64,000 nt of DNA from Flavobacterium luteolum (GTDB taxonomy: Bacteria; Bacteroidota; Bacteroidia; Flavobacteriales; Flavobacteriaceae). Shown here piece after piece: positions 1 to 6,049 of this stretch. The stretch spans positions 1,612,001-1,676,000 of the forward strand of contig NZ_CP114286.1 of the NCBI RefSeq assembly GCF_027111275.1, in the 5' to 3' direction. How positions within the stretch are numbered: position 1 is the stretch's first letter; every line of letters begins with the position of its first letter. The position numbers and the translations under genes are program-made. The notes below the pieces were generated by a model that worked only from the letters and a program-made list of their open reading frames with translations, had not been told where the DNA came from and did no database searches.

Positions 1-792
1 AGTCAGACCGCCTTCTTTTCCGTACTTAATAGAGTTTACAATCAGATTTTCTAAAACTTGCTGTATTCTGTCCTGATCTCCTCGAATCATTACAGACTGC
101 ACATTTTTACTTTCAAAAGCCAATTTGATTTTCTTTTTATCGGCTTTCATTTCAAGCAGTTCAAAAACATTCTGAATTAATTCGACAATATCAAAATCAG
201 TCATATTGAGATCTAAATCGCCCGATTCTAATTTGGTAATCATATCCAAATCTTCTACAATATATATAAGACGTTCTACTCCTTTTTCGGCACGTTTTAA
301 ATATTTCTTTCTGATATTTTTATCGTCCATTGCGCCGTCAAGCAAAGTTGAAACGTAACCTTGAACAGTAAATAAAGGTGTTTTCAATTCGTGCGAAACG
401 TTTCCTAAAAACTCTCTTCTATATTGCTCACGGATTTCGAGCATTTCGATTTCTAGTTTTTTATCTGTCGCAAACTTTTTCACTTCACGCGAAAGCGTTT
501 CCATATCGGTATTAATCGGCTGATTGATTAATGTTGTGGATTCTAGCAACGAAACCTCATCGTAAATTTTCTTCACCCTTCGGTAAATAAAGCGTTCTAC
601 ACGATATTGTAAAACCAGAAAAGAGAAAATATAGATTACGATTATGAAAATTATTCCAAACGCAACTTGATGTTTTAGTTGATTTTTATAAAATAATGAC
701 ATTAACATCAGTACAAATGCTGTTGTAAAAAGACTGATATACAATGCCGATTTTATGGCGAATTTGTATGTTTTTTTAAAATTAATTTTCAT
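1..792 (-). CDS. PhoR-like sensor histidine kinase, C-terminus cut off by window edge
   Basis: Membrane histidine kinase reading leftward out of the window; 264 codons are visible. Two membrane segments are seen (about residues 13-33 and 43-63) with only a very short loop between them, so there is no large periplasmic sensor. A helical linker follows, then the phosphoacceptor H-box NVSHELKTPL with His134, and the N-box ENLIVNSIKY near 248-257. The G-boxes lie beyond the edge. The partner is the OmpR/PhoB-type regulator immediately upstream on the same strand, although a 158-bp inverted-repeat element separates them. PhoR identity is inferred from this architecture and from Pho-like boxes on neighbouring promoters; another OmpR-family kinase remains possible. 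Confidence 0.93.
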   Translation of the reverse strand, partial: MKINFKKTYKFAIKSALYISLFTTAFVLMLMSLFYKNQLKHQVAFGIIFIIVIYIFSFLVLQYRVERFIYRRVKKIYDEVSLLESTTLINQPINTDMETLSREVKKFATDKKLEIEMLEIREQYRREFLGNVSHELKTPLFTVQGYVSTLLDGAMDDKNIRKKYLKRAEKGVERLIYIVEDLDMITKLESGDLDLNMTDFDIVELIQNVFELLEMKADKKKIKLAFESKNVQSVMIRGDQDRIQQVLENLIVNSIKYGKEGGLT

Positions 793-1011: not shown

Positions 1012-1695
1012 CTAAACTTCAAATTTGTAACCTACACCTTTTATGGTTTTAAAAAGATCTTCGCCTATTTTTTCGCGCAGTTTTCTGATGTGAACATCGA
1101 TTGTTCTTCCTCCAACCACAACTTCGTTACCCCAAACTTTATCCAAGATTTCGTCTCTTTTAAAAACTTTACCTGGTTTTGAAGCCAATAGATAGAATAA
1201 TTCGAATTCTTTTCTTGGCAAAGCAATTTCTACATTGCCTTTTATGATTTTGTATTCCTCACGATTAATCTCGATTCCGCCTACATTTAAAGTATCTGTA
1301 ACAACTTCTTGTTCCTTTAATCTTCTTAACAGCGCCTTTACTTTTGAGACCAATAATTTTGGTTTAATTGGTTTTGTAATATAGTCATCGGCACCTGCAT
1401 CAAAACCAGCTACTTGAGAATAATCTTCGCTTCTTGCTGTAAGGAATGTTATGATAACATTATTTAATTCAGGAATTTTTCTAATATGCTCGCAAGCCTC
1501 CATTCCGTCCATTTCTGCCATCATCACGTCCATAATGATTAATTCTGGCAACTCTTTCTGTGCTTTTGCTATAGCATCTTTTCCATTAGAAGCTGTAACA
1601 ATCTGATAGCCTTCCTGAGCAAGGTTATAGCCAACGATTTCTAAGATATCTGGTTCGTCGTCAACTAATAAAATCTTAGTTTGTGTTTTTTTCAT
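1012..1695 (-). CDS. PhoB-like OmpR-family response regulator
   Basis: DNA-binding response regulator of about 227 residues. Receiver domain at about 5-118: acidic pair in LLVDDEPD, phosphoacceptor Asp56 in IIMDVMM, conserved Lys108 in YITKPIK. The C-terminal winged helix (about 130-225) has the family signature VWGNEVVVGGRTIDVHIRKL. The ATG at 1695 is chosen because it gives the usual MKKTQTKILL start; an in-frame start three codons upstream is possible. It is divergent from the TonB receptor and upstream of its kinase. The 11-bp-phased TTAACA-like arrays before the receptor (1822-1871) and the lipoprotein (4829-4856) are what a PhoB-family dimer binding direct repeats would need. Confidence 0.95.
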   Translation of the reverse strand: MKKTQTKILLVDDEPDILEIVGYNLAQEGYQIVTASNGKDAIAKAQKELPELIIMDVMMAEMDGMEACEHIRKIPELNNVIITFLTARSEDYSQVAGFDAGADDYITKPIKPKLLVSKVKALLRRLKEQEVVTDTLNVGGIEINREEYKIIKGNVEIALPRKEFELFYLLASKPGKVFKRDEILDKVWGNEVVVGGRTIDVHIRKLREKIGEDLFKTIKGVGYKFEV

Positions 1696-1821
1696 AAATA
1701 GCAAAAATTGAGATTTTTATATCGAAACTTCTTCATTAAACATTCGATATTTCTTATTTCACAGGGTAAATATACTAACAAAAGAACCTTTAAAAAATGG
1801 TGTTAACCGTAATTTAATCTC

Positions 1822-1899
1822 GTAACAATTTGATAATCTTAACAACACAAAAACATAACAAGTCGGTAACATGGACTTCACAGAGCGGTTCTTTCTTTG
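1822..1899 (+). promoter_or_regulatory. Pho-box-like direct-repeat array and -7 box for the TonB receptor
   Basis: Hexamers start every 11 nt: GTAACA (1822), ATAATC (1833), AACACA (1844), ATAACA (1855), GTAACA (1866). The last two match the TTAACA-N5-TTAACA layout of Pho boxes best. After exactly 20 nt comes TTTCTTTG (1892-1899), one mismatch from the Bacteroidota -7 consensus TAnnTTTG. The same spacing occurs at 4829-4884. Confidence 0.6.
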
Positions 1900-1938
1900 C
1901 ACAAAAATAATTAAGACACAAACACAACACTGAAAAAA

Positions 1939-4713
1939 ATGAAATTCAATCTAAGATTTCTCTTTATTGCATTATTTATCTGTACGATTTCGATCGCGCA
2001 AAACAAAGGTACGATTTCTGGAGTTCTGACTGACAAAGATTCGAACAACGCAGCTCTACCATTTGCTAATGTTTTAGTTAAAGGTACAAATATTAGCGTA
2101 AATACCGACGTTGACGGAAAATATTCGTTAAGCGTAAATCCTGGAAATTATACTTTAATTTTTAGTTTCTTAGGATATGAATCTGTAGAAGCTCCGGTTG
2201 CCGTAAAAGCAAACGAAACTGTAACAGTTAACCAAGGGCTTTCTTCTGGAAGCTATACTCTTAAAGATGTAGTCGTAAAATCTTCTGCAGGAAACAAGCA
2301 AAAAGAATCAGCATTATTATTAGATCAAAAAAATGCAGTCCAATTTAAAGCTGCTATTGGTGCTGAGGAAATTGCAAGAAAAGGAGTTAATGATGTTGCC
2401 AACGCTGTTGCAAAAGTGAGCGGGGTTTCTAAACAAGACGATTCTGGAAATGTTTTCGTACGTGGATTAGGTGATCGTTATAACGTAACTACTTTAAACG
2501 GACTTCCGTTGCCATCAAACAACCCTGCAAATAAAAACATTCTTTTGGAAATTTTCTCTACAAACATTGTAGATAACATTGGAATCAGTAAAACTTTTGA
2601 AGCTCAAAACTATGCCGATTTCGGAGGAGCTAATATCGATATTAGTGCAAAGAAATTCAGCGGAAAACCATTCATCAGCTTTTCAGTTGGTACTGGTGCA
2701 AACACAAATGTTTTAGGACAAGATCATTTTTATCTTCAAGACGGACCTACTTATACAGGATTTAAAAAAGTTGGAGTGCCAGATGCCCCATTATTGCCAT
2801 ATAGCTATGCAACAAGCTGGGACAGACAAGAAAGTAAAAATGTATTAAATGCGTTTTACACTTTATCTGGAGGAAAAAGATTTCAAATAAACGACGAAAG
2901 TTCTATTGGTGCTTTTGTTACTGGATCTTTCAGTGCAAAAAACAAATTCACTCAAGGTTACAGCAGAGGAGGAATTACTTCTGATGGAGATATTTATTCT
3001 GACTTTATCAGAACAGCTTACAAACATAACACTACAACAACAGTTATGGGTACAGCTGATTACAAAATCAACAAAAACCATTCTATCTTCTTTACTTCTT
3101 TATTCTTAAACTCTAGTGAGCAAGACTATAGCGAGTACGAAGGAACTAACATCAACTTTGATGGTGGTGGAGATGCTCAACAGCAAATTAGCGGTTTTAT
3201 CAAACGTGGAACTTTTGAAAGAACACAATTAGTGGTAAACCAATTAACAGGAAAAAGCAAATTTAACGATCGATTGAATTTAAACTGGGGAGTTGGATAC
3301 AGTATGTCTGACAGTGCAATTCCAGATCGTATGCAAAACTCTTTCGTGTATGCTCCTAATGCTATTGATTATACATTTTTCACCAATTCAAATATCAATA
3401 ACCACAGATTTTTTCATGACTTAAAAGAAAATGAAATTGCTGCAAATATTGCTCTTTCTTATAACTTCAAAAAAGGAAGTGATGATACTTACAAAGGAAA
3501 AGTAACTGTTGGTTATTCTGGAAAATTCAAAAATGTAGATTACGATATGCAACAGTTTTCGTTCTTCCCGAACAGAACTACAATATCTTTCCCTAAAGAA
3601 GATATCCACCATGTAGATAACTATTTAGATCCTGCACATTGGGGTTCATCTTACTCAAACAGAATTCACCAAACATATAATGGAAATTTAGATATTAATG
3701 CTGCATTTGTTAATGTTCAATATTCTTTAACTGAAAGATTGAGCGTAATATTAGGAGCAAGATTAGAGCAATTGAATCAGAATGTATTCTATATCACTAC
3801 AACAGTTCCATCTGGAGGAAACTCTGACGATTCTAAATTCAATATTTTACCAAGCTTAATTTCAAAATATACATTGAATGACAGACAGAATTTAAAATTC
3901 TCTGCTAGTAAAACCTATACACTTCCTCAGTTTAAAGAAAAAGTGCCAATTATTTACGAAGATGTTGCACAAGCTTACGAAGGAAACCCAAGATTATACG
4001 CTTCAACAAATTACAACTTCGATTTAGGATGGGAATTTTTCCCAAAAGCAAGCGAATTAATTTCGGTTACTGCATTTGGTAAAATCATTCAAAATCCAAT
4101 CAACGAAATGTTCTTGAATTCTTCTTCAAATGATATTTCTTATGCAAATACAGGAGATAAAGGAACAGTAGCAGGAGTTGAAGTTGAGTATAGAAAAGAT
4201 CTTTTTGAAATTGAAAAAAGAGATAACTTAAAAACAAAACTTTCTTTTGACGCAAACGGATCATATTTATATACAAAACAAGATCTAAGCAACGAAAAAG
4301 TAAACAATGAAAATGATTTTGGAGCGAACTTTACTTTTACATCAAGTAAATTAACAGGAGCTTCTAATTTCCTTGCCAATGCGAACTTATCGTTCTTAAA
4401 TGAGTTTTCAGAAAACACAGATATTTCGGCGACAGTTTCTTACTCTTATTTTTCAGATAAATTGGCTGTAATCGGAACTTCAAGAGTTGGAAATATGGTT
4501 GATAAAGCGGTAAATAAACTAGACTTTATCGTAAATTCAAGTTTGACTAAAAACTTAAAAATTGGTCTTATTTACAACAACATTTTAAATCCAACTTTTA
4601 AACGTGTACAAGAACAAGGAGAAGTTCCTGGAAAAGAGTCTGTAGGAGATATTACTGTAACTTCATATAAAGCAGGTTCAGATCTTAGACTTACTTTAAA
4701 CTATACATTCTAA
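1939..4713 (+). CDS. TonB-dependent receptor with carboxypeptidase-like N-domain
   Basis: Outer-membrane active-transport receptor, 924 residues. A signal peptide ends near residue 20 (CTISIAQN). A carboxypeptidase-regulatory-like beta-sandwich follows (about 22-110; GTISGVLTDKD, DVDGKYSLSV). The plug (about 135-240) contains VFVRGLGDRYN and GANIDISAKK. The rest is a beta-barrel ending in aromatic Phe (LTLNYTF), as expected for outer-membrane insertion. It is divergent from the PhoB-like regulator and is preceded by a Pho-like array. The array suggests induction by phosphate shortage, so phosphate or a phosphorylated compound is a reasonable guess for substrate, but nothing in the protein sequence proves it. 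Confidence 0.95.
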   Translation: MKFNLRFLFIALFICTISIAQNKGTISGVLTDKDSNNAALPFANVLVKGTNISVNTDVDGKYSLSVNPGNYTLIFSFLGYESVEAPVAVKANETVTVNQGLSSGSYTLKDVVVKSSAGNKQKESALLLDQKNAVQFKAAIGAEEIARKGVNDVANAVAKVSGVSKQDDSGNVFVRGLGDRYNVTTLNGLPLPSNNPANKNILLEIFSTNIVDNIGISKTFEAQNYADFGGANIDISAKKFSGKPFISFSVGTGANTNVLGQDHFYLQDGPTYTGFKKVGVPDAPLLPYSYATSWDRQESKNVLNAFYTLSGGKRFQINDESSIGAFVTGSFSAKNKFTQGYSRGGITSDGDIYSDFIRTAYKHNTTTTVMGTADYKINKNHSIFFTSLFLNSSEQDYSEYEGTNINFDGGGDAQQQISGFIKRGTFERTQLVVNQLTGKSKFNDRLNLNWGVGYSMSDSAIPDRMQNSFVYAPNAIDYTFFTNSNINNHRFFHDLKENEIAANIALSYNFKKGSDDTYKGKVTVGYSGKFKNVDYDMQQFSFFPNRTTISFPKEDIHHVDNYLDPAHWGSSYSNRIHQTYNGNLDINAAFVNVQYSLTERLSVILGARLEQLNQNVFYITTTVPSGGNSDDSKFNILPSLISKYTLNDRQNLKFSASKTYTLPQFKEKVPIIYEDVAQAYEGNPRLYASTNYNFDLGWEFFPKASELISVTAFGKIIQNPINEMFLNSSSNDISYANTGDKGTVAGVEVEYRKDLFEIEKRDNLKTKLSFDANGSYLYTKQDLSNEKVNNENDFGANFTFTSSKLTGASNFLANANLSFLNEFSENTDISATVSYSYFSDKLAVIGTSRVGNMVDKAVNKLDFIVNSSLTKNLKIGLIYNNILNPTFKRVQEQGEVPGKESVGDITVTSYKAGSDLRLTLNYTF

Positions 4714-4739
4714 GAAAAAGATTTTCAATAAATTACAAA

Positions 4740-4771
4740 AGGCGATTGGTTATTCCAATCGCTTTTTTTTT
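4740..4771 (+). terminator. Rho-independent terminator after the TonB receptor
   Basis: GCGATTGG (4742-4749) and CCAATCGC (4755-4762) form a tight stem with a five-base loop, followed by a run of eight or more T. Confidence 0.9.
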
Positions 4772-4828
4772 ACCCAAAATTGCAATGTAAATTTTACATT
4801 AAGACACTGCGTTTTTACCCCATTATAC

Positions 4829-4884
4829 TTAATAGATTGTTAATATCGTCTTAACTCAGCAAAAACATATGTTCGTTTACTTTG
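4829..4884 (+). promoter_or_regulatory. Pho-box-like triple repeat and -7 box for the lipoprotein
   Basis: TTAATA (4829), TTAATA (4840) and TTAACT (4851) repeat every 11 nt. After 20 nt comes TTACTTTG (4877-4884), a one-mismatch match to TAnnTTTG. Phase and distance to the -7 box are identical to the receptor promoter at 1822-1899, so the two genes are probably co-regulated. Confidence 0.65.
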
Positions 4885-4918
4885 CCTTGAATAAATAAAA
4901 CAATAAAACACAACAAAA

Positions 4919-6049
4919 ATGAAAAAAAGTTTATTTGCAATGGCTGCAATATTAGGACTTGCTTTAACAAGCTGTAGTTCTGATGATAACAACAAAGACA
5001 CAAACAACAGTTCTTTTGTTTTAAAGGTTGACGATTTAAAAGGAGAAATTAAAGACGGTACTGTAACTTTAGATCCTACTCAAACTTATACATTAACTGG
5101 AGGTTTAGTAGTTAAAGGTGGAGCTACTTTAGTAATTCCTGCTGGAACAGTAATTAAAAGTTCTCCTACTGCAGAAGCAACTTCTTTATATATCGCTGTA
5201 GAAAGAAACGCTAAAATTAACATCAACGGTACTGCTGCTAAACCAGTTATTATGACTTCTGGAAAAGCAACTCCTGCTCAAAGTGACTGGGGTGGATTGA
5301 TCATCGCTGGTAACGGTAAAGTAAACACTGGAGACAATGGAACTTCTGAAGTAGGTGGTTTAAGCTACGGAGGTAATGATAATGCAGATTCTTCTGGAAA
5401 CATTAACTTCTTGAAAATTTCTTACACAGGTTCTAAATATACTGCTGAAAAAGAATATAATGGAGTTTCTTTCTTCGGAGTAGGTTCTGGAACTGTAGTA
5501 TCTGATATCTACACTTTCGAAAGTGGTGATGACGGAATCGAATTCTTCGGTGGAGCTGTAAACGCTTCTAACCTGACAATCATTAACTCTTATGATGATT
5601 CATTAGATTTCGCTGACGGATGGCAAGGTACTGCTACAAACGTATACATTAAAGGTGTTTCTAAAGCAGGTGTTGAAGGATCTACTAACGCTAAAGATCC
5701 AAGTGGAGCTTCTCCAATGACTAACGCTAAAGTTACAAACATCTCTATCGTTAAAGGTGGTGCTACATTCTTAGCTGACGAAAAAGCAATCAACTACAAA
5801 GAAGGTGGTGGAAAACAAACTTACACAAACCTATATGTTGCTGACGGAATGCCTGCTGCTTTAACTAAATTATCTGCTGATGCTGGTGTAACTGCAAATC
5901 TTGCAGCTGGTAACTTCACTATCACAAACTACACTTTTGGAGCTTCTGTAACTGATCTTACAGGTCCTAAATTGGCTGGAACAAGCACAGGAAACCTAGG
6001 AGCTGGTAATGGTGCTGAATTACCAACTTGGGCTAACTGGACTAAATAA
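4919..6049 (+). CDS. Secreted lipoprotein, right-handed beta-helix-like, unknown function
   Basis: A 376-residue lipoprotein with a typical Flavobacterium signal and lipobox (LALTSCSS, Cys19) followed by a Ser/Asp/Asn-rich tether. The body is rich in Gly, Thr, Val and Asn in short regularly spaced beta-like stretches (GGLVVKGGATLVIPAG, GDDGIEFFGGAVNASN, DDSLDFADGW), which suggests a parallel beta-helix. No enzyme signature is recognised. It follows the TonB receptor with its own terminator-separated promoter, and both carry the same 11-bp-phased array. I infer a surface-exposed partner induced with the receptor; binding, scaffold or hydrolase roles cannot be told apart from the sequence. Confidence 0.9.
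   Translation: MKKSLFAMAAILGLALTSCSSDDNNKDTNNSSFVLKVDDLKGEIKDGTVTLDPTQTYTLTGGLVVKGGATLVIPAGTVIKSSPTAEATSLYIAVERNAKININGTAAKPVIMTSGKATPAQSDWGGLIIAGNGKVNTGDNGTSEVGGLSYGGNDNADSSGNINFLKISYTGSKYTAEKEYNGVSFFGVGSGTVVSDIYTFESGDDGIEFFGGAVNASNLTIINSYDDSLDFADGWQGTATNVYIKGVSKAGVEGSTNAKDPSGASPMTNAKVTNISIVKGGATFLADEKAINYKEGGGKQTYTNLYVADGMPAALTKLSADAGVTANLAAGNFTITNYTFGASVTDLTGPKLAGTSTGNLGAGNGAELPTWANWTK

Follow-up and report, generated by a model that had tools for sequence, protein, structure and literature searches.

The promoters of a TonB-dependent receptor gene and of the surface lipoprotein gene that follows it in Flavobacterium luteolum carry arrays of TTAAC-type hexamers, which recur every 11 nt at a fixed distance from the -7 box. 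We have good confidence that these arrays are the Pho boxes of the Flavobacteriaceae, i.e. that PhoB, whose binding is predicted here, occupies the 11-bp direct repeats and thereby co-induces the receptor and the lipoprotein. Both genes lie in a stretch of 64,000 nucleotides (contig NZ_CP114286.1, positions 1,612,001 to 1,676,000; this whole stretch is called the window below), within a 5.36-Mb Flavobacterium-like genome. Directly observed here are the array with its geometry, the extent to which it is conserved and its association with phosphate genes; judging from the sequence, it is most likely the neighbouring PhoB that binds the array and switches the genes on.

Array architecture

In the following, the gap of a unit is the distance that separates its 5-mer NTAAY from the TTTG in the -7 box, and all units and boxes are on the plus strand. 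The TonB promoter contains the units GTAACA (1822..1827, gap 69), ATAATC (1833..1838, gap 58), ATAACA (1855..1860, gap 36) and GTAACA (1866..1871, gap 25), with the degenerate unit AACACA (1844..1849, gap 47) between them and the promoter-proximal unit TTCACA (1877..1882, gap 14), which reads TTTACA in most relatives, at the downstream end. In the lipoprotein promoter, TTAATA (4829..4834, gap 47), TTAATA (4840..4845, gap 36) and TTAACT (4851..4856, gap 25) are followed by the weak promoter-proximal unit AAAACA (4862..4867), which is in register at gap 14. The helical phase relative to the core promoter is fixed, with gaps of 25, 36, 47, 58 and 69, and more weakly 14, to the TTTG, and as in a Pho box there are at least two direct-repeat units 11 bp apart.

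An initial annotation of this DNA had described 11-nt phased hexamers at both promoters, which is borne out, as the TonB units share one register and the lipoprotein units likewise, and it had correctly noted that the final clear hexamer lies 20 nt before the box (starting at 1892 and 4877) in both promoters. The boxes, which had been assigned to a TAnnTTTG type, are indeed present at these positions (TTTCTTTG, 1892..1899, and TTACTTTG, 4877..4884), but each differs from TAnnTTTG by one mismatch. The array, however, does not end 20 nt from the box as had been supposed, since the in-register units TTCACA and AAAACA had been overlooked and place its end 9 nt before the -7 box. With the gap-14 unit extending the TonB array, this promoter looks like three 22-bp boxes placed end to end.

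A TTG in the -33 zone was found in only one of 22 TonB promoters (the set is described below), and the background promoters show no clear -33 peak for comparison. The TonB promoter region contains a second conserved element, TTAAC-N6-TTAAT (1803..1818, no strand assigned), which is offset by 8 nt from the register of the array; TTAAC-N6-TTAA is kept in 22/23 close promoters and is missing in L022. This element may serve phoB.

Conservation in orthologous promoters

For the lipoprotein promoters, the most downstream TTTG was used as the anchor and was picked blind to the array. NTAAY is present at gaps 25, 36 and 47 in 23/23 promoters of the window and 22 close relatives, and in 13, 9 and 13 promoters, respectively, of 18 other Flavobacterium species, among which the next offset is 69 (five promoters, also in register) and any other offset is found at most twice. 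These 18 rows come from 20 loci (L084-L103), of which L096 (flank too short) and L102 (no -7 candidate) were dropped, and the count leaves out the weaker best matches of four genomes (L104-L107) and second matches (L108-L112). At gap 14, AAAAC is found in 21/23 close promoters and NTAAY in just 1/18 other congeners, which is why this unit was rated weak.

The pattern of the TonB array is matched by all 23 close promoters, all of which retain the TTTG of the box, and by 9/9 receptors from other or unclassified Flavobacteriaceae. As some of these promoters were near-copies, 22 of the 32 were retained for counting, namely the window, 12 of the 22 close relatives and the nine others. In this thinned set NTAAY occurs at gaps 25, 36, 58 and 69 in 21, 21, 20 and 21 promoters and at gap 47 in none, with L028, which was anchored on a wrong TTTG, retained as a miss. 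The gap-14 unit reads TTTAC in 14 of them, TTCAC in three, GTTAC in one, GAAAG in three and TTATG in one. The promoter rows share descent, those from outside the genus being the most independent, and since L030 and L032 represent a single assembly and both resemble L025, the nine loci are not nine independent cases; in L031 no such TonB receptor was seen. Spacer letters vary among orthologous promoters while the register stays. The possibility that orthologous promoters lack the array, which the initial annotation had raised against itself, was checked, and the array proved to be present in them.

Link to phosphate genes

Ten loci from other or unclassified Flavobacteriaceae show how restricted the array is. 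It was found in 12 of their 73 upstream regions, and these 12 comprise the nine (9/9) TonB receptors beside a lipoprotein homologue and three PHO4-family transporters, and nothing else. Among the open reading frames (ORFs) listed for three of these loci (L023, L024 and L028) we saw no phoB, so proximity to phoB does not account for the box.

The transporters were then considered independently of the motif, by choosing loci for the PHO4 family (E 1e-20 or better), which is matched in 18/31 family genomes and gave 20 PiT loci. The array lies within 150 nt of the start in 11 of the 20; in the locus of our own genome it is situated ahead of a PhoU_div-PitA operon, and eight loci have none. Together the 20 loci contain 16 matches over 158,046 bases, both strands counted.

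In addition, a matrix was built from 19 lipoprotein promoters with the gap fixed at 25 and compared with 111 background promoters. Scores above all 111 were obtained for TonB, one lipoprotein paralogue and one congener PhoX, which had been picked by gene, and for an OprP-like gene, a choice-of-anchor-I lipoprotein and PhoU_div-PitA, whose scores are not independent because these genes were first found by pattern. The scores of phytase-TonB (picked by gene), MoxR (found first by pattern) and a second PhoX (picked by gene) were reached by 1/111, 1/111 and 2/111 background promoters. The PhoX promoters were drawn from two congeners, since PF05787 has no match in our own genome (matches were found in 7/26 genomes); a profile search for PhoA and EndA likewise gave no own-genome match to PF00245 or PF04231. 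The choice-of-anchor-I lipoprotein was taken as Fjoh_3414 type by annotation likeness, because Table 1 of PMC8115612 gives beta-propeller-like InterPro signatures and a putative phosphatase for the latter.

The genome scan proposed with the initial annotation thus did hit phosphate genes, i.e. PhoU_div/PitA, a Porin_O_P gene and the choice-of-anchor-I lipoprotein in this genome, and PiT across the family. Recurrence before phosphate-acquisition genes extends from the PiT loci to the two PhoX promoters, one of them weaker, and phytase-TonB.

Response of the counterparts to low phosphate

Published data exist for the counterparts in Flavobacterium johnsoniae, which were assigned by position and domains and not from F. 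johnsoniae DNA. Under low phosphate, log2 fold changes of 8.02 for the TonB receptor and 9.91 for the lipoprotein of PUSIV have been reported by Lidbury and co-workers, together with 3.06 for PhoB and 5.42 for a glycosyltransferase (PMC8115612). Loci of the PUSIV kind were tightly repressed when nitrogen or iron was limiting (PMC8115612). The strong induction of both counterparts answers the concern that neither gene might respond to phosphate, and the idea of a phosphate-regulated surface uptake module is supported by this induction as well as by the array at PiT promoters.

Proposed mechanism

Under low phosphate, the PhoR-like kinase would phosphorylate the adjacent PhoB-like regulator, whose protomers would then sit head to tail on the 11-bp (N)TAAC-type direct repeats, the closest one being 14 nt upstream of the TTTG. 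The six in-register units of the TonB promoter, two of which are degenerate, might be used as three 22-bp boxes back to back, and the lipoprotein promoter would offer four units with a weak nearest one. Because 9 nt lie between the end of the nearest unit and the -7 box, we propose that bound PhoB contacts the primary sigma factor and, as the geometry suggests, substitutes for a -33 element. The outcome would be the joint induction of the TonB receptor at the cell surface and the lipoprotein that partners it, and the same box is found ahead of PiT/PitA transporters and of phosphatase genes, both here and in relatives.

With somewhat less assurance, though still as a probable generalization, we suggest a family-wide Pho box made of 11-bp TTAAC-type units at gaps of 14, 25, 36, 47, 58 and 69, at which the -33 contact of the unusual Bacteroidota sigma factor would be taken over by PhoB bound in tandem and whose core targets, where Pst is lacking, are the TonB receptor-lipoprotein pair and PiT. 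The low-phosphate induction of the module in F. johnsoniae and a TTTAACA motif of the Riemerella PhoP were already known; the operator, its multi-unit geometry and the family-wide link to PiT are new. With them the phosphate response of a large bacterial family gains an operator that has a fixed position and can be searched for, the sequence itself suffices to tie TonB surface modules of unassigned substrate to the supply of phosphorus, and the action of PhoB on the Bacteroidota promoter type becomes directly testable.

The presumed regulator and its gene neighbourhood

From the start of the window, the gene order is a phoR-like kinase and a PhoB-like regulator, both on the minus strand, followed by the divergent TonB-dependent receptor and the lipoprotein on the plus strand. 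The histidine kinase (1..792, minus strand; HisKA PF00512; ORF in L122) is truncated at the window edge, the full gene being G000:C1:1611707-1612792, and its top NCBIfam matches are PnpS, WalK and PhoR, each under the cut-off with only the window portion as query. The receptor (1939..4713, plus strand; CarboxypepD_reg_2, Plug and barrel domains) is regarded as the counterpart of Fjoh_0545 of PUSIV because of its position beside phoBR and its domains. The lipoprotein (4919..6049, plus strand) has no Pfam or NCBIfam match, shows up to 98% identity to lipoproteins of named Flavobacterium strains and was paired with Fjoh_0546 'FII' by position.

The presumed array binder is an OmpR-family response regulator (1018..1695, minus strand) with the architecture of PhoB, i.e. 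a receiver (Response_reg) and a winged-helix DNA-binding domain (Trans_reg_C) with a PhoR-like kinase adjoining. The 66 chains matched by its DNA-binding domain include that of E. coli PhoB (1gxp_A, E 1.6e-15), and the protein is the best match in the genome to the PhoB model TIGR02154, with 214.3-214.9 bits at a cut-off of 296.2; against NF053854 it reaches 204.2 bits at a cut-off of 270. There are eight full-length OmpR-type regulators in this genome, and the recognition helices of the seven others differ from that of the PhoB-like protein when compared by eye. Being the best PhoB match yet below the cut-off, with seven other regulators present and a similar array on the side of an RprY-like system, the PhoB-like protein is the most likely binder.

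The array on the RprY side belongs to a gene for a TonB-type barrel (OMP_b-brl_3) that is oriented divergently to an RprY-like pair (L135:996-3110, minus strand, and 3250-5308, plus strand; G000:C1:400139-400197). It has TTAAC units at 11-nt spacing with a gap of 26 to TTTGC and is also found in SLB02 (L154); its matrix score, which is not independent as the promoter was found first by pattern, is reached by 13/111 background promoters. Perhaps it marks a sister regulon that shares the TTAAC unit.

Comparison with known systems

In E. coli, the Pho box lies upstream of the core promoter, with some 10 nt between its near unit and the -10 box. The PhoP box of Bacillus subtilis consists of TTAACA-like repeats about 11 bp apart, with four units at activated promoters, but it works with another sigma factor, at other distances and on Gram-positive targets. 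Like the E. coli Pho box, for which at least two direct-repeat units of 11 nt are described (review PMC4415409), the Flavobacterium arrays have 11-nt direct-repeat units upstream of the core promoter. They differ in the unit, which is TTAAC/TAAC-like and not CTGTCAT, in the number of units (up to six), in the Bacteroidota-type -7 box and in their targets, which are TonB modules and PiT; PstSABC is absent from plant-associated Bacteroidetes (PMC8115612).

Closer to the present case, the PhoP of Riemerella anatipestifer, also a member of the Flavobacteriales, has a motif from DNA affinity purification sequencing with TTTAACA as its most conserved letters; moxR and a TonB receptor are two of its targets in electrophoretic mobility shift assays (PMC9603813). 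The accessible part of that account gives neither an 11-bp tandem architecture nor a distance to the -7 box, and 'direct repeat' has 0 occurrences in it. The Riemerella PhoP, a putative orthologue of the PhoB of the window, was compared by motif and targets. The same cluster as ours, by position and domains, is PUSIV/phoBR of F. johnsoniae with its strong low-phosphate induction, and in the main text on it (PMC8115612) 'promoter' and 'pho box' have 0 occurrences each. Pho boxes have been predicted bioinformatically ahead of plcP clusters of marine bacteria, with the flavobacterium Dokdonia MED134 among the strains (PMC4796936); the available portion of that paper contains no flavobacterial sequence, geometry or assignment of a box to flavobacterial clusters. 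For Bacteroides fragilis, likewise of the Bacteroidota, PhoB binding of the pstC promoter was seen by mobility shift, with no binding sequence in the part of the report at hand (PMC3547664). Within the open-licence literature searched, to the extent that its texts are accessible, there was no Flavobacterium Pho box of this architecture, the nearest being PMC4796936 and PMC9603813.

Alternative explanations

A chance periodicity in AT-rich intergenic DNA was considered as the origin of the array and rejected. TTAAC-like words are common, and a three-unit pattern with one mismatch allowed and without the -7 box is not enriched (57 genome matches versus 65 for the reversed control), so that this pattern is uninformative alone and the -7 box is needed. 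With the box added, spacing 11 stands out genome-wide: TAAY pairs before TTTGC occur 11, 13, 10, 20, 4, 12 and 11 times at spacings of 8, 9, 10, 11, 12, 13 and 14 (81 matches), and the cell of spacing 11 and gap 25 holds 12 matches while all other cells hold at most 7. The 20 matches at spacing 11, compared with 11 for the reversed pattern, include eight that are intergenic and properly ahead of a gene and ten within genes; of the remaining two, L076 overlaps a start codon and L066 has no start downstream. SLB02 has 22 pattern matches, eight of them in promoter position, versus eight for the reversed control. In the window, NTAAY-N6-NTAAY-N24..26-TTTG occurs twice on both strands together, exactly at the TonB and the lipoprotein promoter. 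This excess in combination with the -7 box, and a register held in orthologous promoters though the spacer letters change, leave chance a negligible probability.

A rather unlikely explanation, though the most serious of the alternatives, is that the array serves OmpR-family response regulators generically as a direct-repeat site, being bound by another or several of them, e.g. the RprY-like one, with PhoB as just one user. It would suit the eight OmpR-type regulators, the equally spaced TTAAC repeats on the RprY side in this genome and in SLB02, and the Riemerella motif, which was judged ArcA-like and is present at 579/583 peaks, i.e. a low-information site (PMC9603813). However, all 12 matches among the 73 upstream regions of other Flavobacteriaceae are confined to TonB receptor and PiT genes, low phosphate is the condition to which the induction of the counterparts has been linked (PMC8115612), and the recognition helices of the seven other regulators are unlike that of PhoB by eye. 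Much less probable still is a PhoB whose chief role at the array is in housekeeping or stress regulation, e.g. of the Bat operon, with phosphate as one input of several. The array at the moxR promoter here and in SLB02 would fit such a role, as would the control of the Bat operon by the Riemerella PhoP (PMC9603813) and the 8-fold rise, rather than fall, of pstS in a Riemerella phoPR mutant (PMC5399024), a finding that also weighs against our own interpretation. On the other hand, the F. johnsoniae loci are linked to depletion of phosphate and not of nitrogen or iron (PMC8115612), the array is found at PiT, phytase and PhoX promoters, and the Riemerella protein is no more than a putative orthologue.

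Several further points speak against a PhoB-operated Pho box. The gap-14 unit of the lipoprotein promoters is weak, the regulator stays below both PhoB equivalog cut-offs, and a TonB-type gene beside the RprY-like system bears a similar array. Although phoB is induced in F. johnsoniae, its own promoter has no right-phase array by matrix or by eye and scores at background level (52/111 reach it), and the phoR promoter yielded no matrix score. No array was found within 150 nt in 9/20 PiT loci, one lipoprotein paralogue, picked by gene, lacks it (score reached by 86/111), and weaker scores were obtained for a PlcP-like gene, found by family and by the three-unit pattern alike (4/111), for the glycosyltransferase, picked by gene (13/111, gap 26), and for the TonB receptor of L127, found first by pattern (27/111). 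Promoters with gaps of 24 or 26 are at a disadvantage when the gap is fixed at 25, and if gaps of 24-26 are allowed the latter two match the pattern. Finally, a box that scores among the highest (31.4) precedes the OprP-like gene, whose F. johnsoniae counterpart, Fjoh_0542, is nevertheless not induced (log2 fold change -1.3, not significant; PMC8115612).

Other promoters with the array

The OprP-like box is kept in 9/9 loci where the OprP ORF was assessed (in 13 further loci phoR was picked instead). The Porin_O_P gene beyond phoR (L122:7573-7617, minus strand) has one of the strongest arrays, including a gap-14 unit, and its F. johnsoniae counterpart is uninduced at low phosphate. The array of the moxR (Bat operon) promoter (L126:3216-3260) is also present in SLB02 (L168) and is identical over 45 nt in the two species.

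A TonB receptor beside phosphoglucose isomerase (PF00342; L127:3165-3208, plus strand) carries the array as well, which is retained in SLB02 (L167); this receptor may correspond to the low-phosphate-induced orphan Fjoh_3841 as a putative match. In SLB02, the array also lies 85 nt ahead of the start of an FMN-reductase-like gene (PF03358, L164), in promoter position.

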